A stretch of 47,268 nt of DNA from a virus (IMGVR_UViG_3300011113_000787:1-47268), one strand, 5' to 3'. Counted from the first letter of the stretch, positions 1,624 through 42,266 are shown. Translations and numbers: made by a program. The notes: generated from the sequence alone by a model not told the origin.

Positions 1624-2640
1624 TTAACTATTTAATCCGTTTACTCCTCCTAAGAGTACTGCGTTTAGTTGGACTGCCACTCCGTTTTCTGTTGCGAATC
1701 CAGGGTGTGGTACCTGTACACCAGGTGCCAAAGTACCTCCACTAAAGGAACCTTCCATTGCTGCAGTATATTCATAGAATTGGTTAACCGACGTACCTGT
1801 ATAAACAACTCCACACTCGGCACAATCTACATATGGACCACTAAGGTATGTTGCAGTTGCGACGATTGGACCATAGCTGGTATCAGTAACGAAGTAACAG
1901 TTATAGTCTAAATTATTATTATCAAATGTGAAGATATACATATCCCCAATTGTTGGAGATACTCCCGTAATTTCTACACTCCACGAAGTACCGATACAAT
2001 CTGTGATTAACCAATAACCTGGAGGTGTTGGTGTAGGTGTTGGAGTTTTAGTAGTTGTTGGCGTTGGGGTTGAAGTAACTGCGGCAGTTGCCGTAGCTGA
2101 AGGTGTTACAGCAGGAGTTGCTGTTGGTGATGCTGTAATTGTAGGTGTTGCAGTAACACTTGGTGTATCCGTTGGTGTTGCGGTTGCAGAAGCAGTAATA
2201 CTTGGTGTAACTCCTGGTGTACCTGTTGGTGTAGGTGTTGATGTAACGTTAGGAGTATCAGTTGGGGTACTAGTTGTAGTAACTGAAGGTGTAGGTGTTA
2301 CACTTGGAGTATCTGTAGGTGTAGTCGTAACACTTGGAGTATCTGTAGGTGTTACTGTAGGTGTTGGAGTTTTGGTAGGAGTTGCTGTTGTAGTTGGCGT
2401 TGGAGTAACAACTGCCAAACATGTAGCACAATCACCGTAGTCTGTTGATAGAGTGGCAACTAAATCAACTCCTGTTGAAGGTTCAGCATTATCAATTATA
2501 TCATAACAACCTTCACTGGTTGCCCCTGTGAAAGTTAGATAATAATTTCCGTTGACTGCTGGTAAATTGCTACTATCGAAATCAACAAGTATTGCAGGAC
2601 CACCAGAACACGAACCTACGAGATATGTTACTAAAGCCAT
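1624..2640 (-). CDS. Thr/Pro-rich linker protein with duplicated Cys-containing domain (putative virion surface protein)
   Basis: A 338-residue protein. Residues 1-77 hold a domain ending in DCATC. About 125 residues of [14 protein letters not shown]-type repeats follow. A second copy of the first domain comes after residue 205, with matching GxYxLTF/YIFTF, GCYD/YNCYF and DCATC/DCAECG positions, then a short C-terminal tail. Rigid Thr/Pro linkers joining repeated beta-rich modules are typical of virion decoration or adhesion proteins. The gene has a TATTTATA motif 13 nt upstream of its ATG (2653-2660), in line with late expression. The linker DNA is itself repetitive, so length variation between relatives is likely. 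There is no secretion signal. Function is inferred from architecture only. Confidence 0.75.
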
Positions 2641-17797: not shown

Positions 17798-18211
17798 TTA
17801 TTTCAAAAGCCAAGATGAGGATTGAATTTTATCACCCAAACCGTCGACCAATTTGATACCTAATTCATCACAGATTGGTTTTTCAGGTATAGTGTCGTTA
17901 TTTTGGTCACCTCCGTTTGCAAAGAACAACTCTACGTTTTCTTCAACCTCAGAGGCAATCATTCTCAACGTCTCACGAACCGTTCTGTCTTTATCGATAG
18001 ATAGTATGGTTTTATCTACCATCTTTAAACTATCGATAATTACCAATCTTTCGTCCTCATCTTGGAACTTTTTACTTCCTTTCAACTCACGTTGAAAATC
18101 GTTATTCACAATCACATAGAGTTTGTCTCCATGTTCTTTTGATTTGATAAAGTATTCAATATGTCCTTTATGGACAGGATTGAAATATCCACTTACGATT
18201 ACAACTTTCAT
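17798..18211 (-). CDS. Cytidylyltransferase-like nucleotidyltransferase (HxGH)
   Basis: A 137-residue Rossmann-type nucleotidyltransferase. SGYFNPVHKGHIEYF holds the HxGH ATP/CTP-binding motif, and the end (GDKIQSSSWLLK) matches the SSS motif of glycerol-3-phosphate cytidylyltransferase/RfaE C-domain enzymes. It would activate a sugar- or polyol-phosphate with CTP or ATP. Its ATG at 18211 overlaps the previous stop (TAATG), so a longer frame from 18232 is less likely. It lies within the tRNA array transcript just before tRNA-Trp. Confidence 0.85.
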   Translation of the reverse strand: MKVVIVSGYFNPVHKGHIEYFIKSKEHGDKLYVIVNNDFQRELKGSKKFQDEDERLVIIDSLKMVDKTILSIDKDRTVRETLRMIASEVEENVELFFANGGDQNNDTIPEKPICDELGIKLVDGLGDKIQSSSWLLK

Positions 18212-18765
18212 TATCCTTGTTTTTTTGTCCACTTACTTTTATCCAATAGGTCATCCCAATCTTCATACCCTTGTTCACGTGCATATTCATCGTTTTTTAT
18301 TCTTTGATACTTTTTTACGTTTTCAGGGTCTCTCATAGCTTCAGAGTTTTCAAAACCTAAAGATTTTGCACACTCCTCTTCACACCATCCATGAGAACCT
18401 ATTTCGATGTTTATTGGTAGGTCAGTTTCCAAAGATTCGATAAAATCTTCAAATTGACTTGCCGCTTCATAAGGCATTGTATAGATTCCCTCAGACACTT
18501 GATATCCGCTATCACTTTCTCTGTCGAATATTTCAATCCTACCCATTCTATACTTCTCACCCATCAAACTGAATACACCATATCCAACAGTAGAATAACT
18601 GAATCTACCTGGTGTACTAACACCTTGCATATCAACACATCTCGGATTTGCCTCCATGTAATGTGCCATATGGTCAACTAGCATTTCGTCAGTAAGTTCT
18701 TTTCCTTCTTGTTTTCTTCGGATGTTACTCAGGAACCATAACAAATCCGCTCTATTGATTTTCAT
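18211..18765 (-). CDS. Hypothetical protein
   Basis: A 184-residue protein, acidic, with no motif I recognise. The N-terminal third is helical and contains MAHYMEANPRCVDMQG. The C-terminal part ends in YEDWDDLLDKSKW. It is translationally linked to the cytidylyltransferase through the TAATG junction and follows the 95-residue gene after 16 nt, inside a tRNA-containing polycistron. Confidence 0.7.
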   Translation of the reverse strand: MKINRADLLWFLSNIRRKQEGKELTDEMLVDHMAHYMEANPRCVDMQGVSTPGRFSYSTVGYGVFSLMGEKYRMGRIEIFDRESDSGYQVSEGIYTMPYEAASQFEDFIESLETDLPINIEIGSHGWCEEECAKSLGFENSEAMRDPENVKKYQRIKNDEYAREQGYEDWDDLLDKSKWTKKQG

Positions 18766-19678: not shown

Positions 19679-19684
19679 TTATTG

Positions 19685-19756: not shown

Positions 19757-19762
19757 TTATTG

Positions 19763-19835: not shown

Positions 19836-19840
19836 GGTGT

Positions 19841-19912: not shown

Positions 19913-19915
19913 AAG

Positions 19916-20603: not shown

Positions 20604-20619
20604 AACTATTTTTTTTTTG

Positions 20620-20692
20620 TAGTCCCTGTAGGAATCGAACCTACGACACCTTGCATGTAAGGCAAGTGCTCTTCCAACTGAGCTAAAGGACT
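20620..20692 (-). tRNA. trnV-UAC: tRNA-Val (anticodon UAC)
   Basis: Acceptor AGTCCTT/AGGGACT, anticodon stem CTTGC/GCAAG with loop CTTACAT. Confidence 0.95.
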
Positions 20693-20695
20693 GTG

Positions 20696-20785
20696 AATGA
20701 TGGCACCATCAACTCTCTTGATGCGTTTACGGCAGGGATTAGTAACCTTATCCTTTCGGAATTCGTCCTCTCTTATGCCATCATT
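20696..20785 (-). ncRNA. Stem-closed spacer C (90 nt) between tRNA-Glu and tRNA-Val
   Basis: AATGATGGCA and TGCCATCATT (10 bp, perfect) close the whole gap between the two tRNAs. Inside, CATCAA-CTCTC-TTGATG is a 6-bp hairpin and GGAT/ATCC another. There is no tRNA T loop. Confidence 0.5.
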
Positions 20786-20787
20786 TG

Positions 20788-20859
20788 TAGCCCCGCACGG
20801 ACTCGAACCGAAATCTCCACCGTGAAAGGGTGGCGTCCTAACCTTTAGACGACGGGGCC
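20788..20859 (-). tRNA. trnE-UUC: tRNA-Glu (anticodon UUC)
   Basis: Acceptor GGCCCCG/CGGGGCT, anticodon stem CCACC/GGTGG with loop CTTTCAC. First gene of its transcript. Confidence 0.95.
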
Positions 20860-20867
20860 AAGAATTA

Positions 20868-20898
20868 CAAATTTACAACCAATATTTCAAAGAACCAA
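20868..20898 (-). promoter_or_regulatory. Bacteroidota-type promoter for the tRNA-Glu unit
   Basis: On the minus strand TTG (20898-20896), 20-nt spacer, TAAATTTG (20875-20868), then tRNA-Glu 8 nt later. The pre-tRNA leader would be only a few nt. Confidence 0.8.
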
Positions 20899-20911
20899 AA
20901 ACACCTAAAAT

Positions 20912-20949
20912 AAAAAAACCCCGAACTTCATTTCTGTAGTCCGAGGTTT
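20912..20949 (-). terminator. Intrinsic terminator of the tRNA-Leu unit
   Basis: Minus-strand CCTCGGAC/GTTCGGGG stem (8 bp with two wobbles) followed by T7. It has nearly the same right arm as the terminator at 24931. Confidence 0.75.
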
Positions 20950-20982
20950 GTATATATAACTCTTCAGGAATTATAGGCTATC

Positions 20983-21063
20983 TCATGAGACTACAGCGCG
21001 TGTCTTAAACCAACAAATCTCTTGTTGTTTACTATAGACCATATGACGCACTATTGTTCTCAT
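20983..21063 (-). other. 26-codon ORF overlapping a strong hairpin (micropeptide or structured RNA)
   Basis: ATG 21063 to TGA 20983 could encode MRTIVRHMVYSKQQEICWFK... . The same DNA folds into a nested hairpin on the minus strand: GTGCGT with ACGCGC, GTCT with AGAC, TAAAC with GTTTA, and CAACAA-GAGAT-TTGTTG at the tip. It lies between the homing endonuclease remnant and the terminator at 20912. Coding and RNA roles cannot be separated here. Confidence 0.4.
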
Positions 21064-21114
21064 TGTTATTATAATTACTACAATTATAGTAAAAGTTTTT
21101 AAAAAACAAATATT

Positions 21115-21201
21115 TTATTTTTTTAAAATAGTTCTACCTAATCTCCATCCTTCAGGTATTTTATCGCCCTTATAAATTTTTTTAGATTCGATTTCATTAG
21201 T
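21115..21201 (-). pseudogene. Remnant of a homing endonuclease C-terminus next to tRNA-Leu(UAG)
   Basis: An open frame with no start codon encodes TNEIESKKIYKGDKIPEGW...LGR then a stop. The KGDKIPEGWxLGR pattern is the usual C-terminal motif of phage GIY-YIG/HNH homing endonucleases; compare the LPQDWTYGRV end of the gene at 10480. It begins 7 nt after the tRNA-Leu 3' end. Only about 28 codons remain, so it is a decayed mobile gene. Confidence 0.6.
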
Positions 21202-21207
21202 TCAAGG

Positions 21208-21288
21208 TACCCCAAGAGAGACTCGAACTCTCACGACCGAAGTCATTGGTTCCTAAGACCAACGCGGCTACCGTTACGCCATCGGGGT
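21208..21288 (-). tRNA. trnL-UAG: tRNA-Leu (anticodon UAG)
   Basis: Class II tRNA; acceptor ACCCCGA/TTGGGGT, TGGCG start of the D arm, anticodon stem TTGGT/ACCAA with loop CTTAGGA, discriminator A. Confidence 0.94.
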
Positions 21289-21292
21289 AAGT

Positions 21293-21383
21293 ATCATATC
21301 AGACAGGCATTCTACTCCCAGCTCCGAGGAATTGTATCTAATTTAACCCATCTCACCGCTGTGTGGGTACCTGAAGATATGAT
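21293..21383 (-). ncRNA. Stem-closed spacer H (91 nt) between tRNA-Arg(UCU) and tRNA-Leu(UAG)
   Basis: ATCATATC and GATATGAT (8 bp, perfect) enclose the gap; nested inside are CAGG/CCTG and ACCCA/TGGGT stems. It contains AGCGGTGAG, a 9-mer also present in spacer G. Confidence 0.5.
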
Positions 21384-21386
21384 TTG

Positions 21387-21458
21387 TAGTCCCGACAAGA
21401 ATCGAACTTGTATCTGGAGATTAGAAGTCACCCGTTCTATCCGTTGAACTACAGGACC
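21387..21458 (-). tRNA. trnR-UCU: tRNA-Arg (anticodon UCU)
   Basis: Acceptor GGTCCTG/CGGGACT, anticodon loop CTTCTAA, T loop TTCGATT; one U.U mismatch in the anticodon stem. Confidence 0.92.
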
Positions 21459-21462
21459 AAAG

Positions 21463-21549
21463 TACCTCAGGTGGGACTTGAACCCACACGGACATTTTCT
21501 GTCCACAAGATTTTAAGTCTTGCGCGTATACCGATTTCGCCACCAAGGT
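21463..21549 (-). tRNA. trnL-UAA: tRNA-Leu (anticodon UAA)
   Basis: Class II tRNA; acceptor ACCTTGG/CTGAGGT, TGGCGAAATCGG D arm, anticodon stem CAAGA/TCTTG with loop CTTAAAA. Confidence 0.95.
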
Positions 21550-21555
21550 ATAATA

Positions 21556-21586
21556 CAAAAATAAGGGATTTAGGTTAAAAAAACAA
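21556..21586 (-). promoter_or_regulatory. Bacteroidota-type promoter for the tRNA-Leu unit
   Basis: Minus-strand TTG (21586-21584), 20-nt spacer, TATTTTTG (21563-21556), 6 nt before tRNA-Leu(UAA). Confidence 0.8.
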
Positions 21587-21591
21587 ATAAT

Positions 21592-22299
21592 TTAGAAGTC
21601 TTCTTCGAAAACAGTATCTCTTCCTGTTTCTTCAATATTAGATGTATGATAAAGGATTACTTCTTTCCTATCCAAGTCGATTTCGAAATACCCTTGAGAG
21701 CCCTCGTTGATTTCCCAACCACCAAAATTACTTTCCAAAAGATTGTAACAGTAATCTTGAACCTGTGCAGGTAAGTCATTTCCGTTTGTAAATGAATCTT
21801 CAATGTATCCGCTATCACCACTTCCGTTATAATCAATCCTCAGAACTCTATCTTCGATTTCATCATCATTTTCCAATACATCGAATAGTTCCATTAGGTT
21901 TTCATCATCACCATCTTCTTCCAAGTTTCTGCTAATGGTTTCGGTATCACTAGTTTCATAGTAATTGTAATCATGAGAAACGGAAATCGTTGAATTATCA
22001 CAATCAATATCAATATCAATTCTTTCCCAATTAACATCATCTACATCAGGTTCACTAACCAAATCATTATCACTTACGTAAGCAATGATTTTTTTTAATA
22101 TTTCTTTCAATCCATCAGGAAGCTCCGCGGTATAGTTATTTGAAAAATGAGATATGCGATTCCAATTATAATCATCCTTATCAAATTGGCCATACTCCTT
22201 ATCAAATTCTACAGTCCCATTACTCATACCCAATGAACCTAGGTATCTACAAATTCTTTGTAAGTATTTTTTATCTTCTAATGTTAATAAATTGCTCAT
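21592..22299 (-). CDS. Hypothetical acidic protein
   Basis: A 235-residue, strongly acidic protein (MSNLLTLEDKKYLQ...) with a Tyr/Asp-rich beta-type core and C-terminal EETGRDTVFEEDF. The start at 22299 is preferred over 22323 because TATTTATA (22305-22312) lies 5 nt before it and the longer frame would overlap the previous gene. No family recognised. Its last codons run close to the tRNA-Leu promoter. Confidence 0.7.
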   Translation of the reverse strand: MSNLLTLEDKKYLQRICRYLGSLGMSNGTVEFDKEYGQFDKDDYNWNRISHFSNNYTAELPDGLKEILKKIIAYVSDNDLVSEPDVDDVNWERIDIDIDCDNSTISVSHDYNYYETSDTETISRNLEEDGDDENLMELFDVLENDDEIEDRVLRIDYNGSGDSGYIEDSFTNGNDLPAQVQDYCYNLLESNFGGWEINEGSQGYFEIDLDRKEVILYHTSNIEETGRDTVFEEDF

Positions 22300-22304
22300 A
22301 ATTT

Positions 22305-22312
22305 TATAAATA
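22305..22312 (-). promoter_or_regulatory. Candidate late promoter element TATTTATA
   Basis: Minus-strand TATTTATA between two genes, 5 nt before ATG 22299; it decides the start of the downstream gene. Confidence 0.55.
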
Positions 22313-22666
22313 TCAGTCTTCAAATTCTAATTTAACTGTTTTAAGCATCCAACTCGGTCTTGTGTTAGATGATATATTATTTACCCACTCTTTTGCTGAT
22401 GGTATATAATTGTTACAATCTTCCTTTACATGTTGTTCTCCAACATATCTAGTATAAACTATTTTGCCATCACTATTTTTGAACTCCTTACCAAACCTTT
22501 TTTCCATTTCGAATATCCCTTCAGAATGATGTCTAAACATTCTATGAAGGGAATCACCAAACCAACCTTTGGTTTCATCTAACCATTCATGTAGATGAAT
22601 ATAATCTTCAGGTTTTCCTCCAAACTTTTTTGCTGAACTTTTTGCGTGTAGATTAGGGTGTGCCAT
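22313..22666 (-). CDS. Conserved hypothetical protein, DUF6915-like
   Basis: A 117-residue protein. MAHPNLHAKSSAKKFGGKPEDYIHLHEWLDETKGWF and HRMFRHHSEGIFEMEKRFG resemble a conserved bacterial/phage family (DUF6915-like) rich in His and Trp. The many conserved His residues suggest metal binding, but no function is known. It overlaps the sulfotransferase gene by 14 nt in the same direction. Confidence 0.6.
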   Translation of the reverse strand: MAHPNLHAKSSAKKFGGKPEDYIHLHEWLDETKGWFGDSLHRMFRHHSEGIFEMEKRFGKEFKNSDGKIVYTRYVGEQHVKEDCNNYIPSAKEWVNNISSNTRPSWMLKTVKLEFED

Positions 22667-23252
22667 TTTTCCAAGAATCTTTATGGTAATCGAATAGTTG
22701 AAATTGTTCTATAAAATTCTCATGAACGAAATTAGCCAATTCCTCATTGTAAAATTCTTTCCAATTTTTCCTTTTTTCGTTCATCTGGTTTTCGAATTCA
22801 GTTTTGTATCTATTGTTTTTTATATTGAATTCAAATTGTTCACTTATCTTGGGGTCTGAAAAATCAATAAAACTGATTGACTTTATATCTTCTTCAAAAT
22901 TCTCAAGTCTTATAAATTTATTAAACGGTCTTCCTAATTTTAGAATATCCTTATGATAGAAGAATTGATATGAATCACAAAATATAAAACTTTGTAATGA
23001 TTTATAGACCCAGCTATCAAATTTTAAACTGAAGTTGTTAATGTGATGTGAATAAAGATGAAAGATACTAACTAATCGAGAATATGGATTTCTAACATTT
23101 GATATGAAAAAGGAATCCTGTTCGTTTTTATTAAAATAAAAACTGTGGTCTCCTATTTGAAAACCCAAAACAAGAAGTATTTCTTTAACAGAACGAGTCC
23201 CTGTCCTTTTTGGGGTAAACCAATAACAGTTGTATTTTTCTGAAAAGTTCAT
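22653..23252 (-). CDS. Sulfotransferase-like protein (second copy, divergent)
   Basis: A 199-residue protein with FTPKRTGTRSVKEIL (5'-phosphosulfate loop, residues 13-25) and SNVRNPYSRLVSIF (3'-phosphate motif, about 52-64). Both PAPS-binding blocks are intact. Identity with the protein at 13328 is confined to these motifs, so they are old paralogues or separate acquisitions with different acceptors. The ATG overlaps the stop of the upstream membrane protein (TAATG). Confidence 0.75.
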   Translation of the reverse strand: MNFSEKYNCYWFTPKRTGTRSVKEILLVLGFQIGDHSFYFNKNEQDSFFISNVRNPYSRLVSIFHLYSHHINNFSLKFDSWVYKSLQSFIFCDSYQFFYHKDILKLGRPFNKFIRLENFEEDIKSISFIDFSDPKISEQFEFNIKNNRYKTEFENQMNEKRKNWKEFYNEELANFVHENFIEQFQLFDYHKDSWKNGTP

Positions 23253-23485
23253 TACAATATTTTAGAATTATTTCTCCTAGCTTCTTCCGCCTCTTTGTAT
23301 ATTCTAACCCAAGTGAGGAATACATCCACAGGTGCGAGTATCCAACACATAATCAATAACCCCAATGTGTCCAAACCAGGAGATATACCTAAACCACCCG
23401 CCATTACATCTCGATTCCATTTCCTTATAGACATAAAGATACAATAAGATAAACAAATCAAATAATAAGACCAAAAAACTTGCAT
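23252..23485 (-). CDS. Small membrane protein
   Basis: A 77-residue protein with two hydrophobic helices (about 2-18 and 38-58, LGLLIMCWILAPVDVFLTW) and a basic C-terminus. The TAATG junction with the sulfotransferase gene supports this frame over the overlapping one at 23304-23531, which runs into tRNA-Ala. Function unknown; it may anchor or assist the sulfotransferase, which is speculation. Confidence 0.6.
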   Translation of the reverse strand: MQVFWSYYLICLSYCIFMSIRKWNRDVMAGGLGISPGLDTLGLLIMCWILAPVDVFLTWVRIYKEAEEARRNNSKIL

Positions 23486-23501
23486 ATATTAAAATTTTTA
23501 G

Positions 23502-23574
23502 TGGAGAATGAGGGAGTCGAACCCACGACAACTTGAATGCAAATCAAGTGCTCTACCAACTGAGCTAATTCCCC
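23502..23574 (-). tRNA. trnA-UGC: tRNA-Ala (anticodon UGC)
   Basis: Acceptor GGGGAAT/ATTCTCC, anticodon stem CTTGA/TCAAG with loop TTTGCAT; one U.U mismatch in the T stem. Confidence 0.93.
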
Positions 23575-23576
23575 TA

Positions 23577-23619
23577 AATAGGTGGGACTAACCTACTTCA
23601 GGTTTGTACACCACCCATT
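23577..23619 (-). ncRNA. Stem-closed spacer D (43 nt)
   Basis: AAT-a-GGTGG pairs with CCACC-c-ATT, and AACCT-ACTTC-AGGTT forms an inner hairpin, filling the gap between tRNA-Thr and tRNA-Ala. Confidence 0.35.
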
Positions 23620-23631
23620 AAAGTCCTTTTG

Positions 23632-23704
23632 AGCCTCCTATCGGAATCGAACCAATAACCTACGCATTACAAGTGCGTTGCTCTACCAGTTGAGCTAAGG
23701 AGGC
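23632..23704 (-). tRNA. trnT-UGU: tRNA-Thr (anticodon UGU)
   Basis: Acceptor GCCTCCT/AGGAGGC, anticodon loop CTTGTAA, T loop TTCGATT. Confidence 0.94.
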
Positions 23705-23709
23705 AATTT

Positions 23710-23746
23710 GTGGGTGTATGCTCATCACATACTTACTGGGCCCCAC
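23710..23746 (-). ncRNA. Stem-closed spacer E (37 nt)
   Basis: GTGGG pairs with CCCAC and GTATG-CTCATCA-CATAC forms an inner hairpin, between tRNA-Gly and tRNA-Thr. Confidence 0.35.
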
Positions 23747-23754
23747 CACCGATG

Positions 23755-23827
23755 AGCGGAAGACCAGGCTCGAACTGGCCACCCCAATCTTGGCAAGATT
23801 GTGCTCTACCGAATGAGCTACTTCCGC
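23755..23827 (-). tRNA. trnG-GCC: tRNA-Gly (anticodon GCC)
   Basis: Acceptor GCGGAAG/CTTCCGC, anticodon stem CAATC/GATTG with loop TTGCCAA. Outside the anticodon arm it differs from tRNA-Gly(UCC) at 14571 at one D-loop position. Confidence 0.95.
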
Positions 23828-23828
23828 G

Positions 23829-23921
23829 TATAGGTTTTTCGTCGACAGATTAGCCCAACAGACCGTCGTCATCTATTGGATTTTGGACACGGGTACACAA
23901 AAATGTGCGTTACAACCTATA
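23829..23921 (-). ncRNA. Stem-closed spacer F (93 nt)
   Basis: TATAGGTT and AACCTATA (8 bp, perfect) close most of the gap between tRNA-Asp and tRNA-Gly; an inner CACA-AAAA-TGTG hairpin is visible. Confidence 0.45.
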
Positions 23922-23932
23922 AACCCTACCAG

Positions 23933-24003
23933 CGGTCCCACGGGGAATCGAACCCCGCACCTCGGCGCGACAAGCCGATATTATACCGATTAACTATAAG
24001 ACC
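23933..24003 (-). tRNA. trnD-GUC: tRNA-Asp (anticodon GUC)
   Basis: Acceptor GGTCTTA/TGGGACC, anticodon stem TCGGC/GCCGA with loop TTGTCGC, discriminator G. Confidence 0.94.
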
Positions 24004-24005
24004 AT

Positions 24006-24196
24006 AAAACAGGTTTTTTGTGCCCTTTTACACATCATGACCAACATATTCCTATATTGGTGGTTACATTTTCGTCGTTGGTTAATTACTCCTGACTTAT
24101 AGTAAACACTACCCTCACCGCTCTGATACCGCGAATCAAGACGGCGTCTTTGGGATTCATATACCGAGGGGTTCCACCTCAGTCTTCACCTGTTTT
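24006..24196 (-). ncRNA. Stem-closed spacer G (191 nt) between tRNA-Asn and tRNA-Asp
   Basis: AAAACAGGT and ACCTGTTTT (9 bp, perfect) close the whole gap. Inside are GAGG/CCTC and other hairpins, and the 9-mer AGCGGTGAG shared with spacer H. No tRNA, RNase P or known RNA motif is recognised, and no ORF of note. Confidence 0.5.
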
Positions 24197-24198
24197 TG

Positions 24199-24270
24199 CG
24201 TCCCCTCAAGGATTCGAACCTTGGACTTCTTCGTTAACAGCGAAGAGCTCTACCGCTGAGCTAAGGAGAC
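24199..24270 (-). tRNA. trnN-GUU: tRNA-Asn (anticodon GUU)
   Basis: Acceptor GTCTCCT/AGGGGAC, anticodon stem CTTCG/CGAAG with loop CTGTTAA. Its 5' 21 nt overlap the 3' end of the HNH gene. Confidence 0.95.
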
Positions 24271-24780
24271 AAATTTATTTTTATATTCCAAGACCTTATC
24301 AAATATTTCATTTTTGTATCTTGAATGAATATATTGATGATGTGTTGGACACAAAGGTATTAAATTTTCAGGAGAATTATTATTGCGATTTTCATCAAAA
24401 TGATGAACAGTAACAATTTTTTCTTCTCCACAAACTATACATTTCTTTTCATGGTGTTCAAAACATGTTGACCTATATGAATGGTCTCTCCAGTTAGGAT
24501 TATTTTCACCACTCCTGAAATGGGTATTTGAACAAGAATAAGAACAAGTTGTTTTTTCCAACTTTCCCCCATTTCTTGTTTCGAACTCTTTACCGCAAAC
24601 GGGACAAATTTTTTTAATAATTTGATATTTAACATCTCTTTTTCTCAGATGCAATATATTCAAATTATTTTTTTCAACATATTCAAAAAACTTCTTACGG
24701 GACCTTCCGTTATCGTACCCATAACTTTTTTTTATTGCTTCCGCAATAGTTTGTGAATTTTTAATAAAATTTTCTATCAT
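24250..24780 (-). CDS. HNH homing endonuclease reading into tRNA-Asn
   Basis: A 176-residue protein with two zinc-binding Cys clusters (CPVCGKEF...CSYSC and CIVCGEEK) and an HNH core: VTVHHFDENRNNNSPENLIPLCPTHH. The C-terminal codons and stop are made from the tRNA-Asn 5' half (last residues SLAQR, with the TAG in the D loop). This is how free-standing homing endonucleases often sit beside their target. TATTTATT is 3 nt upstream of the start. It interrupts the array between tRNA-Pro and tRNA-Asn. Confidence 0.9.
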   Translation of the reverse strand: MIENFIKNSQTIAEAIKKSYGYDNGRSRKKFFEYVEKNNLNILHLRKRDVKYQIIKKICPVCGKEFETRNGGKLEKTTCSYSCSNTHFRSGENNPNWRDHSYRSTCFEHHEKKCIVCGEEKIVTVHHFDENRNNNSPENLIPLCPTHHQYIHSRYKNEIFDKVLEYKNKFVSLAQR

Positions 24781-24783
24781 ATT

Positions 24784-24791
24784 AATAAATA
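24784..24791 (-). promoter_or_regulatory. Candidate late promoter element TATTTATT
   Basis: Minus-strand TATTTATT, 3 nt before the HNH start; member of the recurrent set. Confidence 0.5.
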
Positions 24792-24844
24792 TTCACAATT
24801 GTCGGTAAAATAAATTTTGGGTCAAAACTTTTTTTACAGACTTG

Positions 24845-24917
24845 TAGAGTAGACAGGACTCGAACCTACACGCACTTGCTCCCAAAGCAAGGGACCTACC
24901 TATTGGTCAACTACTCT
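24845..24917 (-). tRNA. trnP-UGG: tRNA-Pro (anticodon UGG)
   Basis: Acceptor AGAGTAG/CTACTCT, anticodon stem CTTGC/GCAAG with loop TTTGGGA. Confidence 0.94.
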
Positions 24918-26390: not shown

Positions 26391-26879
26391 ATGGGTGATG
26401 TATTAGTATTAAATTTTGATTATACCCCGTTGAATGTAACTACAATTCGACGAGGATTTGTTTTAGTAGATAAAGGTAAAGCCGAAATTGTTAAGTCAGA
26501 TGAAACTCCAATAATTGCTGGTTTCAAAACATATGTGCGCCCTGTAATCATCAGACTTCTGAAATACATCAAACATTTCACAAGAACTCTTCGTGCCAAT
26601 AGAAACAGAATATACAAAAGAGACAACCACCAATGTGTATATTGCGGTTCAAACAAACATCTAACTTTGGACCACGTTATACCTAAATCAAGGGGAGGAA
26701 AAAATGATTGGGATAATCTTGTTACCTCTTGTTTCAAATGTAATTTAAAGAAGTCTAATAGAACCCCTGAAGAAGCAAGGATGTCTATGAGACACAAGCC
26801 ATTTGCCCCTACATTAGTTGGTGAAAACGTAATTGTGAGTAAAGTTTGGGAAGACTATCAAAAATCATTCATTTATTAA
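26391..26879 (+). CDS. HNH endonuclease domain protein
   Basis: A 162-residue protein of the common bacterial HNH family that starts VLVLNFDYTPLNVTT. The HNH site is CVYCGSNKHLTLDHVIPKSRGG followed by NLVTSCFKCNLKKSNRT, with four Cys ligands. These proteins are widespread in Bacteroidota and phages; unlike homing endonucleases this type often belongs to the core genome. It is first in an operon with a membrane protein and two carbamoyltransferases, driven by a host-type promoter. Confidence 0.85.
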   Translation: MGDVLVLNFDYTPLNVTTIRRGFVLVDKGKAEIVKSDETPIIAGFKTYVRPVIIRLLKYIKHFTRTLRANRNRIYKRDNHQCVYCGSNKHLTLDHVIPKSRGGKNDWDNLVTSCFKCNLKKSNRTPEEARMSMRHKPFAPTLVGENVIVSKVWEDYQKSFIY

Positions 26880-26896
26880 TAAAACAATTTATAATT

Positions 26897-27211
26897 ATGA
26901 AGATGAACTCCGAGAAAAAAATAAGGATTGCATTCACCATAACGGTCTTAGCGTTACTGTGGGCACTTATTCGTATGGAACAGTATAAAAGTTTAAGTGA
27001 AAAAACACCTATCGAAGTAATTGGTGGAGGTGATATTTCTAAAGCCCAAACAATTGATTCACTTCAACACGTTATTGATTCACTCTACATGGAAAATTTT
27101 CCATGCCAAGTAGAATTGGGTAGATACCAAGTCGCCTTCCAAATTTTTATGGAAAGAAATCCAAAAGCCGCGTCTCAATATGGAGACATAATTTCTGAAG
27201 AAACTGAATAA
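26897..27211 (+). CDS. Small membrane-anchored protein
   Basis: A 104-residue protein with one N-terminal membrane anchor (KKIRIAFTITVLALLWALIRM) and a periplasmic or cytoplasmic tail containing a short coiled coil (IDSLQHVIDSLYMEN). ATG 26897 is chosen because it starts 18 nt after the HNH stop. The layout resembles i-spanin-like proteins, but no lysis cassette is nearby, so the function is unknown. Confidence 0.65.
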   Translation: MKMNSEKKIRIAFTITVLALLWALIRMEQYKSLSEKTPIEVIGGGDISKAQTIDSLQHVIDSLYMENFPCQVELGRYQVAFQIFMERNPKAASQYGDIISEETE

Positions 27212-27213
27212 AA

Positions 27214-27483
27214 ATGCAAGAAAATCAAACAAACCCAGCAGAAAATCATCAAGATTTATTAAACGCATCTTTAATATTTGCAAGAGCTTTGAGTCTTATA
27301 CTTGAAGATAGTCAAGGTATAGTTGTAGACATTCAAGGTGGTATTGAAGTAGAGTCGGATGTTGAAAAAGTAATCGTATTCAAACATCAAGACCAAGTTC
27401 ACATTTATAAATGTGAGGATGACTTAGTTGAAGGTACAGCTGTAAGAATGTCTAATATTGAAGATAATTCTGAACAAAAATAA
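27214..27483 (+). CDS. Small hypothetical protein
   Basis: An 89-residue acidic protein (MQENQTNPAENHQDLL...), with a beta-rich middle VIVFKHQDQVHIYKCED. It lies 2 nt after the previous gene and 5 nt before the first carbamoyltransferase, so it is an operon member. No family recognised. Confidence 0.65.
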   Translation: MQENQTNPAENHQDLLNASLIFARALSLILEDSQGIVVDIQGGIEVESDVEKVIVFKHQDQVHIYKCEDDLVEGTAVRMSNIEDNSEQK

Positions 27484-27488
27484 CATAC

Positions 27489-29159
27489 ATGAGAGTATTA
27501 GGTTTTTCTGTCGGTCACGACAAGGGAGCTGTTATTATTGAAAACGGCAAGATTTTAATTGGTATAACACAAGAAAGACTTTCAAGAGTGAAGCACGATG
27601 GCGCTCACGTTGGTGGTCTTATTCCTACTGAATCAATTAAATATTGTCTTAATAATACCTCACTTACTTTTAAGGACATTGATTTGTGGGTTTATAGTAC
27701 CACAGAGGAAGTTGATGATGTTATCGAAAAATTCTTTAAAGAATTAAAATACGACATTTCTCAAAAACATGAATTTATTCCCCATCACTTAGCACACGCT
27801 TATTCAACATTTTTCAGCTCGGGATTTGATGATGCCGTAGTTGTAGTTGCAGATGCGTCTGGTAGTATTCTTAATGAACGTAATAGACTTCATGAATGGT
27901 ACCCAAATGTCTCAAACGAAGGGCTTAAGGAAGGAGAATCATGGACTGAAGGAATATCAATTTTTGATTTTACAAAGAAAGAACAAAATGAGGTATACAA
28001 GAAGTGGATTAAGTACCCTGTACCTATCGATACAAATGAAGGTGTTTCAGTTGGTACTGTTTATTCTTTGGGTTCTTTACAATTAATATATGAACCTCAA
28101 AGCCACACTTGGCCAGCGGGTAAGCTTATGGGTTTAGCGTCATATGCAGATAAGGATATTGTTGCTGAAGCTCCTGAATATACTGTTTGGACTGATGACG
28201 GTGATATTCTTATACCTAATAACACAATCTACCCAAGAGTAACGTACGACGCAGACTTTTTCTCAAGAGCTTGTGTCGCAGGAATTTATCAAAGAGAACA
28301 AGAAAGAGTTTCTCTAATGTTAGCTGAACTCGGAAAAAAATTAACCAAATCCAAAAATATTTGTGTTGCGGGAGGTTCATTTCTGAATTGTAATTCCAAC
28401 GAACAAATTCTTAATTCAGGTTTGTATGAAAATTGTTACTTCCTACCACCATCCGATGATTCGGGTATTCCTTTGGGTTGTGCGTGGTATGGATATCAAT
28501 TGGTAAGTCCAATAAATAAAGTAGAACCTTTATCCCCTTATCTCGGTAAGATTTATTCAGATAAGGAAATCGCAGAATCCATTAATGAATATACTAATTT
28601 AGAGTTTGTTAAATATGAAAATTTTGACGACCTAATTGAAGAAGTATCATTCCTTTTAAATCAAAATAGAGTTATTGGATGGTTTCAGAATGGTTCAGAA
28701 ATAGGACCAAGAGCTTTGGGTAATCGTTCAATTTTGGCTTCTCCTATACAAAAATGGATGACTGGTTATATAAACTCCGATATTAAGAAAAGAGAATGGT
28801 ATAGACCTTTCGCACCTGCTGTTCTATTCGAACATCAATCTGAAATATTCGAATCGGATGTCTACTCCCCATACATGCTTGTAACAACTTCAGTAAAAGA
28901 AGAGTGGAGAAATAAAATCCCCGCAGTTACACACATAGATTACTCAGCCAGACATCAGTCTGTAACTGAAGAATCGAATCCAAGATTTTATAAATTAATA
29001 AACGCATTCTATAACAAAACTGGTGTTCCTGTACTCTTGAATACGAGTTTCAATGGACCACATGAGCCGATAGTTGAGTCTCCATCAGACGCAATCAAAA
29101 CAATGTTCAGTTGTAAATTGGACTTCCTTGTTATAGGAAATATTCTTATCAAGAGATAA
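27489..29159 (+). CDS. Carbamoyltransferase (TobZ/NodU/HypF-type), first of a tandem pair
   Basis: A 556-residue protein. Residues 1-350 form the ASKHA-like Carbam_trans_N domain (FSVGHDKGAVII..., ITQERLSRVKHDG, HHLAHAYSTFFSSGF with H99, H100 and H103, VVVVADASGS). Residues about 370-556 form the YrdC-like C domain with VIGWFQNGSEIGPRALGNRS and the terminal PVLLNTSFNGPHEPIV. Such enzymes use carbamoyl phosphate and ATP through carbamoyl-adenylate to carbamoylate a hydroxyl on a sugar or antibiotic. All visible active-site blocks are intact. It is followed by a paralogue after 4 nt. Confidence 0.92.
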   Translation: MRVLGFSVGHDKGAVIIENGKILIGITQERLSRVKHDGAHVGGLIPTESIKYCLNNTSLTFKDIDLWVYSTTEEVDDVIEKFFKELKYDISQKHEFIPHHLAHAYSTFFSSGFDDAVVVVADASGSILNERNRLHEWYPNVSNEGLKEGESWTEGISIFDFTKKEQNEVYKKWIKYPVPIDTNEGVSVGTVYSLGSLQLIYEPQSHTWPAGKLMGLASYADKDIVAEAPEYTVWTDDGDILIPNNTIYPRVTYDADFFSRACVAGIYQREQERVSLMLAELGKKLTKSKNICVAGGSFLNCNSNEQILNSGLYENCYFLPPSDDSGIPLGCAWYGYQLVSPINKVEPLSPYLGKIYSDKEIAESINEYTNLEFVKYENFDDLIEEVSFLLNQNRVIGWFQNGSEIGPRALGNRSILASPIQKWMTGYINSDIKKREWYRPFAPAVLFEHQSEIFESDVYSPYMLVTTSVKEEWRNKIPAVTHIDYSARHQSVTEESNPRFYKLINAFYNKTGVPVLLNTSFNGPHEPIVESPSDAIKTMFSCKLDFLVIGNILIKR

Positions 29160-29163
29160 CTTA

Positions 29164-30759
29164 ATGAGTACAATATATGGATTTTTTGGTGGCTCACACA
29201 GTCCTTCCACGTCATTTATAAAAGACGGTGAGATAATTTGTTGTATAGAAGAAGAAAGAATCACAAGAATCAAAGCTGGTGATAATTTCGATTGTGTGGC
29301 GGAGCTGAGTTCAAAAGAAGTAGAAAAAATAACGGGAGTTCCAATCAAGGAAGCCGACCATAGAGTATTTGTTGAACCCGTCACTGATGCATTTGCCAAC
29401 AGGTTAACAAACTTCAATTATGATAGGGTAAGTCATCACGACGCACATTGTTATGGGGCTTATTTCACAAGTGGTTTTGAAGGTAAAGCACTCAGTATTT
29501 CATACGATGGTGGTGGAGATAAGTCAGTAATGAAAATTTATTTATGTGAGGACGGCAAAATGACTTTAGCCCACTCATATGATATGTGTTCAACAGGTAG
29601 TTTAGCACATCTTTGGGCGTTCTCAGTTAGCACCATTAAGGGTTACGACCAAGATGGTGAAAGTATTTGGAGAATGTGTAAAGATGAAGGGAAATTGATG
29701 GGTATGGCACCCGATGGTGAATACGATGAAAATTTCTATAGAATATTAAAGTCTTTAATCGATTACAAGGAACTACGTTTTTTCCCAAATGATACTGGTA
29801 ACAAAACAAGATTCGTAGTAGAAACAATGCACAGACTTGGTTGGTTCGATGACCACAAAAACATAGAGAAATTTTCCTACAATCTTCAAAAAATCACTGA
29901 AGATTTGATGTTGAATTTCTTCAACGACTTACATAATAAATTTCCTGAATACACTAAATTGTGTCTATCGGGAGGATTATTCGCCAACGTAAAATTGAAC
30001 CAAAAAATAAATCAACTATCATGGGTTGATGAAATTTTTGTTTTTCCTGCAATGGGGGACGAAGGATTAAGTTTGGGTGCTTGTATAATCAAAGCACATC
30101 AGCTTGGTGAAATTACAAAACCATTCAAATTGAAAAATGTATTTTTTGGTAAGCAGTATTCTAATAGACAAATAATTGATGCTTCAGAAAAATACTCTGT
30201 TGTATACGAAAAATACCAACCATCAGAAATTGCAAAAGCAATTCACAATGGTGAAATTGTAGGTTGGTTCCAACATGGATTTGAATTTGGTCCAAGAGCC
30301 TTGGGAGCGAGAAGTATATTGGTAAGACCTACCGACTATGAAACTCATAGAAAACTTAACAAACGTCTCAAAAGACACGACTCGATGCCTTTCGCACCGA
30401 TAGTCATGGAAGAATTTTTTGATGAGCTTTTTGTTGAGTCAAAATCAAAATACTCATCTGAGTTTATGACCCTGTGTTTTCAAACCAAAGATGAATGGAT
30501 TGAAAAAATTCCAGCAGTTATCCAAAAGTCAGATAAAACAGCCCGACCACAATTGGTAAAAAAACAAAACAACCCAATGTTTTGGGAAATATTGAATGAA
30601 TATCATAAAATTTCAGGTATACCTGTTTTACTTAACACATCTTTCAATACCCACAACGAACCAATAATAGATAAACCCGACCATGCGTTTCCAAAACTCA
30701 TGGACGGTACATTAGATAAACTTATAATAGGCGAATATGTTTTTTCAAGTAGGAAATGA
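29164..30759 (+). CDS. Carbamoyltransferase, second of a tandem pair
   Basis: A 531-residue paralogue with the same two-domain layout. It has IEEERITRIKAGDNF, HHDAHCYGAYFTSGF (H91, H92, H95), ISYDGGGD, then IVGWFQHGFEFGPRALGARS and IPVLLNTSFNTHNEPII. Divergence from the first copy is large outside the motifs, so they probably have different acceptors or act as a hetero-complex. It overlaps the next gene by 23 nt. Carbamoyltransferases are known in some T4-like marine phages, where DNA or glycan modification has been considered. Confidence 0.92.
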   Translation: MSTIYGFFGGSHSPSTSFIKDGEIICCIEEERITRIKAGDNFDCVAELSSKEVEKITGVPIKEADHRVFVEPVTDAFANRLTNFNYDRVSHHDAHCYGAYFTSGFEGKALSISYDGGGDKSVMKIYLCEDGKMTLAHSYDMCSTGSLAHLWAFSVSTIKGYDQDGESIWRMCKDEGKLMGMAPDGEYDENFYRILKSLIDYKELRFFPNDTGNKTRFVVETMHRLGWFDDHKNIEKFSYNLQKITEDLMLNFFNDLHNKFPEYTKLCLSGGLFANVKLNQKINQLSWVDEIFVFPAMGDEGLSLGACIIKAHQLGEITKPFKLKNVFFGKQYSNRQIIDASEKYSVVYEKYQPSEIAKAIHNGEIVGWFQHGFEFGPRALGARSILVRPTDYETHRKLNKRLKRHDSMPFAPIVMEEFFDELFVESKSKYSSEFMTLCFQTKDEWIEKIPAVIQKSDKTARPQLVKKQNNPMFWEILNEYHKISGIPVLLNTSFNTHNEPIIDKPDHAFPKLMDGTLDKLIIGEYVFSSRK

Positions 30760-31378
30760 GAAGATAGTTTTGGATTTCAATGATGGAATCACGGTCAGAG
30801 TTGGGGGACCTGATATAACCTATTTTGTCGAGTGTGTCGAATACAAAGGTTCTGACCATCAGCCAGTCACATTGGAAAGTTTTCACGTCACAACTAATTG
30901 TGATTGGCCACAAAAACAATTCAGAGTTCCTATAGAATTCTATATGGACTTCGAAATCAAAATATACAGATTTGACCCAATATACGGTCTAAAGTTGATT
31001 TTCAATCACAGATATAATGACTATGACCAACTTGTTAGGTTTATTGTCGATACTGATGACTTAGATGAAGCAAAAATTTGGTTAAGTAAAATCAGAGAAT
31101 ACCAAAGAAAAAATCTTTGTAAGATTCAAGTTTTTTCCAAATTTCAAGAAATTGACTCCGCTTCGGATACTAGATTTCAAACAAGAGATTTGACCCCTTA
31201 CAAAACATATAAACTTGGTAGATTTCCTAAGAATTCATCTGATTGGAAAACAATCGACCCAAGAAAAGAGGGTTTGATTTGGCTAGGTCACTGGAAAACT
31301 ATTTGGTCATATCAACATCCAAGAATTTGGAAAAACCTTTCGTCCGAAGAAATTGTTAATGATATTTTGGGATTGTAA
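30737..31378 (+). CDS. Hypothetical protein in the carbamoyltransferase operon
   Basis: A 213-residue protein of unknown family. It begins inside the end of the second carbamoyltransferase gene (23-nt overlap), so translation is coupled and a shared process is likely. It contains glycan- or polysaccharide-style aromatic patches (TRDLTPYKTYKLGRFP, LIWLGHWKTIWSYQHP) but no catalytic motif that I can name. It may be an acceptor-processing or accessory enzyme; that is inference. Confidence 0.7.
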   Translation: MFFQVGNEKIVLDFNDGITVRVGGPDITYFVECVEYKGSDHQPVTLESFHVTTNCDWPQKQFRVPIEFYMDFEIKIYRFDPIYGLKLIFNHRYNDYDQLVRFIVDTDDLDEAKIWLSKIREYQRKNLCKIQVFSKFQEIDSASDTRFQTRDLTPYKTYKLGRFPKNSSDWKTIDPRKEGLIWLGHWKTIWSYQHPRIWKNLSSEEIVNDILGL

Positions 31379-31414: not shown

Positions 31415-32092
31415 ATGGATATCGGAAAAGAATTTACATCTTATTACACAAAACATTTAGGAAAAGGTTCTTTGGACCTTCATTATTTCGGACAACAAAT
31501 TCAGTCGTCCATGACCCCTTATATCTTGGAGGAAAGAGAAATGAGAGCAACTCAGATTGATATCTTTTCTCGTTTGATGAGAGATAGGATTATATGGGTA
31601 GCGGGAGGTGTCGACGACAGGATGTCCACAATAGTTCAGGCTCAACTTATGTTTTTGGATAATGCCGAAAAAACCGACATTACCATGCACATCGATTCAC
31701 CAGGTGGTTCTGTTAAATCAGGTCTATCTATGGTCGATGTTATGAACTACATCTCATGTGATATCATCACAGTGAATACAGGTATGGCGGCATCTATGGG
31801 GTCGATTCTATTGGGTGCAGGAACTAAAGGTAAAAGGAGCTCATTGAGATTTTCAAGAACCATGTTGCATCAATCATCAGGGGGTTTTGGTGGGAATATT
31901 CAAGACGCCGAAATTAGTATGAAGGAATGGCACAAACTGAATGATATCTTATTCCAACTTTTGGGTGAATATTGTGGTAAAGACCCTGAACAAGTTAAAC
32001 AAGATGCGACAAGGGATTTGTGGTTAGATTCTGAACAAGCATTAGAGTACGGAATTATTGATACTATCGTAAAAACAAAAAAGAAGGGTTAA
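31415..32092 (+). CDS. clpP: ClpP serine protease
   Basis: A 225-residue ClpP-fold protease. The triad is complete: S127 in GMAASMGS, H152 in MLHQ and D201 in TRDLWLDSEQALEYGIID. The oxyanion segment HIDSPGGSV (93-100) is present. The N-terminal 40 residues (MDIGKEFTSYYTKHLGKG...) are extended relative to mature bacterial ClpP and may be a propeptide or a changed axial loop. It is expected to form a tetradecamer, which could dock the phage ClpC at 4647 or the host ClpX/ClpC. Phage ClpP-like proteins often serve as prohead proteases, which is an alternative. The early-type promoter and distance from capsid genes favour the Clp role. Confidence 0.9.
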   Translation: MDIGKEFTSYYTKHLGKGSLDLHYFGQQIQSSMTPYILEEREMRATQIDIFSRLMRDRIIWVAGGVDDRMSTIVQAQLMFLDNAEKTDITMHIDSPGGSVKSGLSMVDVMNYISCDIITVNTGMAASMGSILLGAGTKGKRSSLRFSRTMLHQSSGGFGGNIQDAEISMKEWHKLNDILFQLLGEYCGKDPEQVKQDATRDLWLDSEQALEYGIIDTIVKTKKKG

Positions 32093-36389: not shown

Positions 36390-36986
36390 ATGAGATTCAA
36401 TTCACTTACAATAGACGATTTTTACTCTAATCCGTTAGAGGTTAGAGAATTTGCACTTAAACAAGAATTCAAAGTACGAGGAAATTATCCAGGTCAAAGA
36501 ACAAAATCTTTTTTAAGTGATGGGTTAAAAAAGAGACTCAGAGATATTCTTTATCCATTTGCAGGAGAAATTACATATTGGGGTAGTGATGACCCTGAAA
36601 ACAATTACACAGGTTCTTTTCAATACACTGTAGCTGAAGATAGGTCATGGATTCATGCCGATTCACATACTGATTGGGCTGCGGTTTTATACCTAACACC
36701 TGACGCACCATTAAGTTCAGGTACTGGAATTTTCAGACACAAAGAAACAGGTTGGATGCATTACGACTACAAAAGAGAAAATGAACCAGGTTATAAAGAA
36801 TCTGCACCTCCTGGTGATGAAATGAGAGACTATACAAAATGGGAACTAGTTGATAGAATCGGAAATGTGTTCAATCGTCTTATCATGTACAGAGCAGATA
36901 ACTACCACGTATCATTGGATTACTTCGGTAAGAATTTGTATGATGGAAGATTGTTTCAGGTCTTTTTCTTCAACACGGAGCGTTAA
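36390..36986 (+). CDS. 2OG-Fe(II) oxygenase-like protein (DUF6445-like)
   Basis: A 198-residue protein with an HxD iron site in WIHADSHTDWAAVLYLTPD (H89, D91), a distal His in NYHVSLDYFG (about 172) and a following Arg (GRLFQVFFF), the layout of Fe(II)/2-oxoglutarate dioxygenases. The order of features matches DUF6445-type proteins common in marine phages. The substrate may be a protein, a nucleobase or a cofactor. It converges with a minus-strand gene that is coupled to a second oxygenase. Confidence 0.8.
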   Translation: MRFNSLTIDDFYSNPLEVREFALKQEFKVRGNYPGQRTKSFLSDGLKKRLRDILYPFAGEITYWGSDDPENNYTGSFQYTVAEDRSWIHADSHTDWAAVLYLTPDAPLSSGTGIFRHKETGWMHYDYKRENEPGYKESAPPGDEMRDYTKWELVDRIGNVFNRLIMYRADNYHVSLDYFGKNLYDGRLFQVFFFNTER

Positions 36987-40963: not shown

Positions 40964-41172
40964 AAGAATTAGATTTACATGGAATATTTCATAGAGATGT
41001 AAGGGACAAAGTTGAAAATTTTGTTCTCTTACACTCTACTGAACTTCCTGTAAGGATTATCACAGGTGACTCACTTAGAATGAGGAATTTGACTATAAAC
41101 ATTCTTAATAAACATAAATTTTCCTACGACCTACCAGCACATAACCCTGGTGAAATTATAGTATTATCATGA
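40960..41172 (+). CDS. Smr-domain protein
   Basis: A 70-residue protein consisting of one small MutS-related (Smr) domain. KELDLHGIFHRDVRDKVENFV holds the LDLHG motif, and VRIITGDSLRMRNLT stands at the usual TGxG motif (here TGDS). GEIIVL closes the domain. Smr domains nick or bind structured nucleic acids and some cleave stalled-ribosome mRNA. ATG 40960 is fixed by the ATGA junction. If it acts on stalled mRNA it would complement the phage tmRNA; that link is speculative. Confidence 0.8.
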   Translation: MKELDLHGIFHRDVRDKVENFVLLHSTELPVRIITGDSLRMRNLTINILNKHKFSYDLPAHNPGEIIVLS

Positions 41173-42266
41173 ATACCATAGACAAGAAATATCAAGACCT
41201 ACTGCTCCACATCCTTCGTGAAGGTGTTGTGAAAAAAGATAGAACAGGTACAGGAACCAAATCAATTTTTGGTTATCAAATCCGTCATAACATGAGGGAA
41301 GGTTTTCCATTACTCACAACGAAAAAAATGGCATGGAAAACTATGGTAACTGAATTACTTTGGTTTTTACGTGGTGATACTAACATCAAGTATTTGGTTG
41401 ATAATGGTTGTAACATTTGGAATGGTGATGCTTATAAAAATTATTTGAACATTACTAAACGTGAATTCGAACTAAATTCAGCGATGTCGGGTCATCCTCA
41501 TTTCAACCTCAAATCTGTAGATGAGTTCATAGATAAAATCAAAACTGATGTGAGGTTTGCTAAAGAATATGGTGGGTTAGGTCCAATTTATGGCAAACAA
41601 TGGAGACAATGGCAAGGTTGGATGACCACTTCAAAAGGTGAAATGGGCTCATTGTGGTTCGACCAAATTCAAAGATTAGTCCACATGTTGAGAACAGAAC
41701 CTGATTCAAGAAGACTTATGGTTAATGCTTGGAATGTTGGTGAATTAGATGAAATGGTTTTACCTCCATGCCATTATGGGTTTCAAGTATATACAAGAGA
41801 ACTTACATACAGTGAAAGATACAGTTTGTGGTTTTCTAAAAATTACGAAACGGGGATGGAATACGATGAAACAATTATTCCTGATTTTGATAATGACTAC
41901 TACACAAAAACACCTACTAGAGCAATATCTTTGATGTGGAATCAAAGGTCTGTTGATACATTCTTAGGATTACCATTCAATATTGCCTCTTACGGACTAT
42001 TACTAACCTTATTAGGAAAGTTAGTCAACATGGTTCCCGACGAATTAATCGGTAATTTGGGCGACACCCATTTGTATCTGAATCACATTGAACAAGCAAG
42101 AGAACAAATTGAAAGAAAATCATTCGAATTACCAAACGTGAGATTGAATTTTGATTTTCAATTTAATGACGGATATCTTGTTGCTTGGGAAAAAATTGGT
42201 GTTGATAATATTCAATTATTGAACTACAACTCTCATTCACCTATAAAGGCACCTTTGAGTAACTAG
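41169..42266 (+). CDS. thyA: Thymidylate synthase
   Basis: A 365-residue thymidylate synthase. RTGTGTKSIFG, PLLTTKKMAWKTMVTELLWFLRGDTN, catalytic C201 in LPPCHYGFQ, QRSVDTFLGLPFNIASYG with N271 (dUMP-specific, not dCMP) and DTHLYLNH are all present. About 40 extra residues lie between the catalytic Cys and the QRS motif (YTRELTYSERYSL...TKTPTR), longer than in E. coli ThyA. It would methylate dUMP to dTMP, though a dUMP hydroxymethylase cannot be excluded by eye. Coupled to the Smr gene by ATGA. Confidence 0.93.
   Translation: MNTIDKKYQDLLLHILREGVVKKDRTGTGTKSIFGYQIRHNMREGFPLLTTKKMAWKTMVTELLWFLRGDTNIKYLVDNGCNIWNGDAYKNYLNITKREFELNSAMSGHPHFNLKSVDEFIDKIKTDVRFAKEYGGLGPIYGKQWRQWQGWMTTSKGEMGSLWFDQIQRLVHMLRTEPDSRRLMVNAWNVGELDEMVLPPCHYGFQVYTRELTYSERYSLWFSKNYETGMEYDETIIPDFDNDYYTKTPTRAISLMWNQRSVDTFLGLPFNIASYGLLLTLLGKLVNMVPDELIGNLGDTHLYLNHIEQAREQIERKSFELPNVRLNFDFQFNDGYLVAWEKIGVDNIQLLNYNSHSPIKAPLSN

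Follow-up and report, generated by a model that had tools for sequence, protein, structure and literature searches.

Class III O-carbamoyltransferases of the TobZ/GdmN type rely on a general base histidine and four iron ligands, which in GdmN are H27 and H133, H137, D156 and D333, respectively (PMC9633730). Phages are known to encode an enzyme of this type that carbamoylates 5hmC (eLife 2021, PMC8670742). This enzyme does not act on 5hmdUTP, and the positions of TobZ W408, G421 and R423 are the ones that best separate contigs of modified DNA from others (PMC8670742). TibC and Aah are O-heptosyltransferases of the BAHT family (TIGR04414; structures 4rap and 4rb4). In TibC, the beta-barrel spans residues 1-97 and the N-lobe residues 98-195; the C-lobe (218-406) carries the donor site, the thumb and the iron finger. 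The D110A variant of TibC is inactive, and TibA is no longer heptosylated once 80 or 95 residues are deleted from the TibC N terminus (PMC4358343).

Here, we describe a phage locus in which relatives of these two enzyme types are neighbours, namely a divergent carbamoyltransferase (CT2) and a half-length TibC homologue (U213). The literature that we searched, in which subscription papers were mostly outside reach, holds no published account of such a pair. We also know of no carbamoyltransferase of solved structure that has a half-TibC partner, as CT2 does.

RESULTS

Organisation of the locus

The stretch of DNA analysed here (the window) comprises bases 1-47268 of a virus record of 111,268 bases, which is itself a fragment. 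The relevant features are the following.

1624..2640, minus strand: Thr/Pro-rich protein of 338 aa (29 T, 15 P and 5 S in a stretch of 60 residues)
17798..18232, minus strand: nucleotidyltransferase (context); best curated model, heptose-1-phosphate adenylyltransferase domain
26391-26879: HNH gene, unrelated to the CT1/CT2/U213 unit; the interval of the original prediction begins here
27214..27483, plus strand: gene for 89 aa that directly precedes CT1 and is retained by most close relatives (tblastn synteny)
27489..29159, plus strand: CT1, class III O-carbamoyltransferase of 556 aa with Kae1-like and YrdC-like domains (Pfam PF02543/PF16861, phrog_1601, phmmer)
29164..30759, plus strand: CT2, divergent class III O-carbamoyltransferase of 531 aa (Pfam; model against PDB)
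30737..30759, plus strand: 23-nt overlap of the CT2 end and the U213 start (ORF coordinates)
30737..31378, plus strand: U213, half-length TibC/Aah O-heptosyltransferase homologue of 213 aa (TIGR04414, Foldseek, CT2 adjacency)
31415..32092, plus strand: ClpP-like protease (PF00574, 3e-57), which follows CT1 directly where CT2-U213 is absent (synteny)
36390-36986: DUF6445 gene
37399-37998: 2OG oxygenase
41169..42266, plus strand: thymidylate synthase (TS) homologue, dUMP-type, with PPCH147 and GLPFN177 (PF00303; residues read)

CT1, CT2 and U213 are all full-length and on one strand, with 4 nt between CT1 and CT2. The 23-nt overlap makes translational coupling of CT2 and U213 likely. The ORFs, and the presence of both Pfam domains in each transferase, agree with the original prediction of two full-length, divergent O-carbamoyltransferases followed by an overlapping gene of 213 residues. 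The two small genes that the predicted interval includes upstream of CT1 are outside the unit, and the 89-aa gene has no match at E 0.01 in Pfam and PHROG searches. A tmRNA gene and 24 tRNA genes, a large set for a phage, are found just upstream of the three genes (10053-24917).

The wider neighbourhood had been predicted to encode a cytidylyltransferase, two oxygenases, two sulfotransferases and a GT17-like enzyme. The cytidylyltransferase holds as the nucleotidyltransferase at 17798-18232, which scores 58.8 of 181.5 bits against the heptose-1-phosphate adenylyltransferase model, far under the cut-off. The 2OG oxygenase and the DUF6445 gene hold as well. The sulfotransferase matches remain under the Pfam cut-offs (E 0.018 and 0.03), and the GT17-like assignment (38052-39029) has neither Pfam nor NCBIfam support.

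Two divergent carbamoyltransferases

Both enzymes score over the Pfam cut-offs for Carbam_trans_C and Carbam_trans_N (5e-67 and 1.5e-27 for CT1, 8e-53 and 1e-25 for CT2), and both match phrog_1601. CT1 finds VtdB, TobZ, NovN and GdmN in phmmer searches, and TobZ, GdmN, NovN and VtdB are also the best PDB matches of the CT2 model (pLDDT 92.8). The structural comparison with TobZ that was suggested together with the original prediction gives E 2.4e-40 and a TM score of 0.85 for CT2. CT1 and CT2 share 34% identity across 276 aa of the C-terminal part. In the alignments, the general base (H10 in CT1, H12 in CT2) and the iron ligands (H99, H103, D122 and D324 in CT1; H91, H95, D115 and D299 in CT2) are all kept, as they are in every sampled relative. 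On sequence grounds, we consider the assignment of both proteins to the class III O-carbamoyltransferases of TobZ/GdmN type as firm. They resemble TobZ, GdmN, NovN and VtdB in two-domain fold, base and iron ligands, and are expected to use carbamoyl-adenylate chemistry (PMC9633730). CT1 and CT2 differ from these enzymes in being phage-encoded, and CT2 also in having a methionine (M408) at the position of TobZ R449.

The TobZ residues W408, G421 and R423 correspond to W398, G411 and R413 in CT1 and to W368, G381 and R383 in CT2. Sampled relatives keep W-G-R as well, and the substitutions of the 5hmC enzyme are absent. The 5hmC carbamoyltransferase and the carbamoyltransferase of Bacteroides phage BF486P3, which adjoins a gene annotated as deoxycytidylate 5-hydroxymethyltransferase, read I-C-T instead. 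In a tree of the C-terminal region, the CT1s (100/100) and the CT2s (92/93) form separate clades, and a third clade (100/100) unites the proven 5hmC carbamoyltransferase with the BF486P3 enzyme. This DNA-type clade groups with the CT2 clade, its nearest neighbour among the sampled groups, against the remaining carbamoyltransferases (split 97/94), and the two have the methionine at the TobZ R449 position and an M-PFAP motif in common.

The Nol-like carbamoyltransferases of cyanophages and pelagiphages resemble CT1 and CT2 in phrog_1601 membership, and share 29-33% identity with CT1 over its full length. They differ from CT2 in that none of those sampled has a half-TibC neighbour. In cyanophage S-RIM44, the carbamoyltransferase is annotated as two pieces (L126, 3986-5607), with the C-terminal-like piece first, adjoining ThyX, and the larger piece after it. 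Matches to CT1 of 2030 nt in some loci, which might have been read as introns, are CT1 matches joined to the CT2 start.

U213 is half of a TibC-type enzyme

The protein described as unknown in the original prediction, which has no match in Pfam and PHROG searches, is no longer an orphan. Residues 4-180 of U213 match positions 6-174 of the 374 positions of NCBIfam profile TIGR04414 (E 2.9e-9); the score is 36.4 bits against a cut-off of 200, and the protein stops before the C-lobe. The AlphaFold model is of moderate confidence (pLDDT 72, low at 165-196; pTM 0.64). Its top 19 PDB matches in Foldseek are all TibC (4rb4/4rap, E from 1.1e-8), and its matches in a viral library include two phage proteins, one named Aah/TibC glycosyltransferase and the other a glycosyltransferase. 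Remote half-TibC partners of CT2 also match the N-terminal half of TIGR04414 (best E 1.5e-8). The identification of U213 as a half-TibC is thus firm.

By profile and fold, U213 has the N-terminal beta-barrel and the GT-B N-lobe of TibC/Aah. In contrast to TibC/Aah, it is encoded beside a carbamoyltransferase and lacks the C-lobe, and with it the donor site, the hairpin thumb and the four-Cys iron finger. The catalytic D110 is not kept either: the residue is E111 in U213, and E, D, Q, T, N or I across 30 pairs. Without an ADP-heptose-binding lobe, U213 therefore cannot transfer sugar by the known TibC mechanism. Its length (213-215 aa in close relatives) and dN/dS (about 0.06-0.12) nevertheless mark it, at the sequence level, as a true gene under purifying selection. 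The only match to U213 in cellular genomes comes from a Crocinitomix MAG (L134, JALQVX010000268.1), in which the end of the gene lies at a contig edge (1-360) and is followed by aroA and other cellular-looking genes; this may be a chimera or an integration.

CT2 and half-TibC proteins form a conserved pair

In all 45 IMG/VR loci found with a U213 profile, CT2 is directly upstream. A CT2 profile search adds many remote homologues (38-46% identity) on unrelated contigs. We counted 59 distinct CT2-clade loci in IMG/VR, after dropping truncated duplicates (L097-L103), other carbamoyltransferase classes (L125, L130, L132), one false match of 24 bits and a locus cut by the contig end (L172). A stand-alone half-TibC of 175-297 aa is directly adjacent on the same strand in 55 of the 59. 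In L185 and L189 the adjacent half-TibC is fused to a GT2 domain, in L196 it is on the opposite strand, and in L183 CT2 adjoins a TibC-domain protein of 1120 aa. No half-TibC neighbour was found for CT1-type or other phage carbamoyltransferases (0/47); among these, the CT1s of close relatives carry less weight as controls than the enzymes of cyanophages and pelagiphages, because CT2 is the gene next to these CT1s. The final half-TibC profile was trained partly on neighbours of CT2 and is circular for a few loci, e.g. L163 and L169; the independent A5 profile gives the same picture for most of the others. As the IMG/VR pairs are metagenomic and have common ancestry, the locus counts do not represent independent events.

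The gene order within the pair is reversible, with the half-TibC first in some loci (L171, L174, L176-L182, L197), and the pair is duplicated in tandem in L188, L190, L191 and L194. Across 30 distinct pairs, the two genes are spaced by -23 to +2 nt, and CT2 and half-TibC distances are strongly correlated (Mantel r 0.89, 0/5000 permutations); the 14 remote pairs alone give r 0.83 (0/5000). In relatives in IMG/VR, the order is HNH, small genes, CT1, [CT2, U213], ClpP, with CT2 and U213 either jointly present or jointly absent. CT1 is directly followed by ClpP in L016, L017, L018, L020 and L023, all without the pair. CT2 and half-TibC are firmly a conserved pair with near-obligate adjacency.

The second CT2 copy is short in the tandem pairs (L091, 4890-5975; L188, L190, L191, L194): with about 361-373 aa, it aligns with no more than the N-terminal two thirds of the CT2 profile and seems to be without the YrdC-like domain.

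Genomic context of the pairs

Remote pairs are found in glycan clusters. On the L046 and L164 contigs, the pair lies beside a TibC-like glycosyltransferase (GT) and multi-GT proteins. L179 encodes an HldD-like protein, GTs, a TibC-like GT, half-TibC and CT2. The order in L091 is TibC-like GT, radical SAM protein, CT2, half-TibC, short CT2, half-TibC, DUF6445-like, HldD-like and HldE-kinase-like protein. The Hld-like genes of such clusters resemble those for ADP-heptose synthesis. In L187 the cluster is placed after the end of a tail-fibre gene, and in L185 a fusion of an FkbM methyltransferase and a carbamoyltransferase is followed by CT2 with half-TibC-GT2 and then by a tail sheath gene. The FkbM-type methyltransferase/carbamoyltransferase is a natural fusion (L185, 16-2778; L189, 1-2793). 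A TibC-like barrel was considered for FkbM methyltransferases near remote pairs and then discarded, as the profile scores were marginal or nil.

In a 321-kb relative (G010), a TibC-like transferase adjoins very large Thr/Pro-rich ORFs, and one ORF of this cluster (1433 aa) has phrog_15511 in common with the Thr/Pro-rich window protein at 1624..2640, which is a candidate O-glycosylation acceptor. The 111-kb fragment record encodes no full-length TibC-like transferase. TibC-like domains are present twice in a 317-kb relative (G005) that has no CT2/U213; the pair therefore does not track the heptosyltransferase.

Elsewhere in the record, a UDP-galactopyranose mutase gene and two GT2-like genes (96779-100285, L008) represent a possible second glycan cluster of the same phage. 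A TonB-dependent-receptor-like protein (CarboxypepD_reg, Plug and OMP beta-barrel; 108245-110776, L009) suggests a Bacteroidota host. Many small genes of the record (e.g. 82388-85085, 104959-105587) have an N-terminal 'MKYIISESRL'-like motif.

The thymidylate synthase homologue

All ten TS copies that were read, from the phage and its relatives, have H147 and N177, as dUMP-type enzymes do, and not the D177 of dCMP hydroxymethylases; four of the ten are alike in the stretches read. There is one copy per genome, and the 317-321-kb relatives likewise have N177. A TS homologue with D177 was not found in the fragment record or in these relatives, and the flanks of the remote CT2 loci, about 6 kb, contain no TS homologue. 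A search with PF18723 (5hmU DNA kinase family) had no match anywhere and is thus without weight either way.

DISCUSSION

The almost constant presence of a half-TibC beside CT2 suggests a two-part enzyme. If CT1 and CT2 are active, they would be expected from their sequences to convert carbamoyl phosphate and ATP to carbamoyl-AMP, and to pass the carbamoyl group on to a hydroxyl. CT2 would be one half of a two-protein unit, in which U213 most likely binds the acceptor or serves for docking, without catalysis of its own. The substrate would probably be a sugar on a protein glycosylated by the phage, such as a virion fibre or another Thr/Pro-rich protein, which CT2 would cap with a carbamate. We infer the CT2-U213 complex, the acceptor-binding role, the sugar, its carrier protein and the benefit for the phage. 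In view of the glycan clusters and the Thr/Pro-rich ORFs, heptose-like O-glycans on phage proteins appear to be the most economical substrate. That the substrate is a glycan seems likely to us, and the explanation as a whole, with CT1 and CT2 decorating a glycan and U213 serving CT2 as non-catalytic acceptor-binding partner, moderately likely. The more specific proposal that the glycan is attached to a virion protein, with U213 as the acceptor-binding subunit, has slightly less than an even chance.

The original prediction had left the choice between a decorated glycan and a hypermodified base. The glycan branch has gained by association, from the half-TibC nature of U213 and the remote pairs in glycan clusters, whereas the base branch, once a candidate for the main reading, has been weakened by the TS N177 in ten copies and the W-G-R of both transferases. 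CT1 and/or CT2 could nevertheless carbamoylate hydroxymethylated bases of phage DNA for nuclease protection, as the 5hmC enzyme precedent (PMC8670742), the BF486P3 gene neighbourhood and the TS homologue in the window might suggest. The greater proximity of the CT2 clade than of CT1 to the DNA-type clade, with the shared M-PFAP motif and the exchange of R449 for methionine, keeps a nucleic-acid substrate possible for CT2. However, a TS of dUMP type in a single copy per genome, the lack of TS homologues near remote CT2 loci, and the inactivity of the proven enzyme on 5hmdUTP (PMC8670742) all speak against it, as does W-G-R in place of I-C-T, and we regard DNA bases as an improbable target.

A glycan target need not be on the virion. 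CT1 and CT2-U213 may instead modify LPS or capsule glycans of the infected host, which could, for instance, keep out other phages. Class III carbamoyltransferases without a dimerization domain usually use polar acceptors, such as tobramycin (PMC9633730), the same record carries glycosyltransferases and UDP-galactopyranose mutase, and the neighbour of a pelagiphage carbamoyltransferase gene is annotated as UDP-glucose/GDP-mannose dehydrogenase family. We nevertheless consider host glycans unlikely, in view of the fact that TibC-type enzymes modify proteins (PMC4358343) and that several remote clusters have genes for tail fibre, tail sheath or what look like other structural proteins as neighbours. 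It is also conceivable that U213, devoid of the donor lobe and the conserved aspartate, is no enzyme part at all but a gene in decay next to CT2, or a regulator. This is very hard to reconcile with its constant length and a dN/dS of about 0.1, with adjacency in both orders in unrelated phages, and with the co-divergence and the GT2 fusion. Joint regulation, instead of a complex, could also account for overlap and co-inheritance of CT2 and U213.

Our preferred reading, a carbamate-capping pair of CT2 and U213, may extend to a widespread, previously undescribed two-component phage enzyme, in which a half-glycosyltransferase supplies the acceptor specificity of a carbamoyltransferase in trans for the capping of phage glycoproteins, a tentative generalisation that we hold to be slightly more doubtful than probable. 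If it is true, the unannotated family of proteins beside the carbamoyltransferases of many large phages would have a function, and half a glycosyltransferase would have been put to new use as a subunit for targeting. The gene pair would be a simple marker, with which phage carbamoyltransferases of glycan type might be told from those of DNA type. Finally, it would point to phage protein glycosylation with carbamate caps, which would be open to mass spectrometry.
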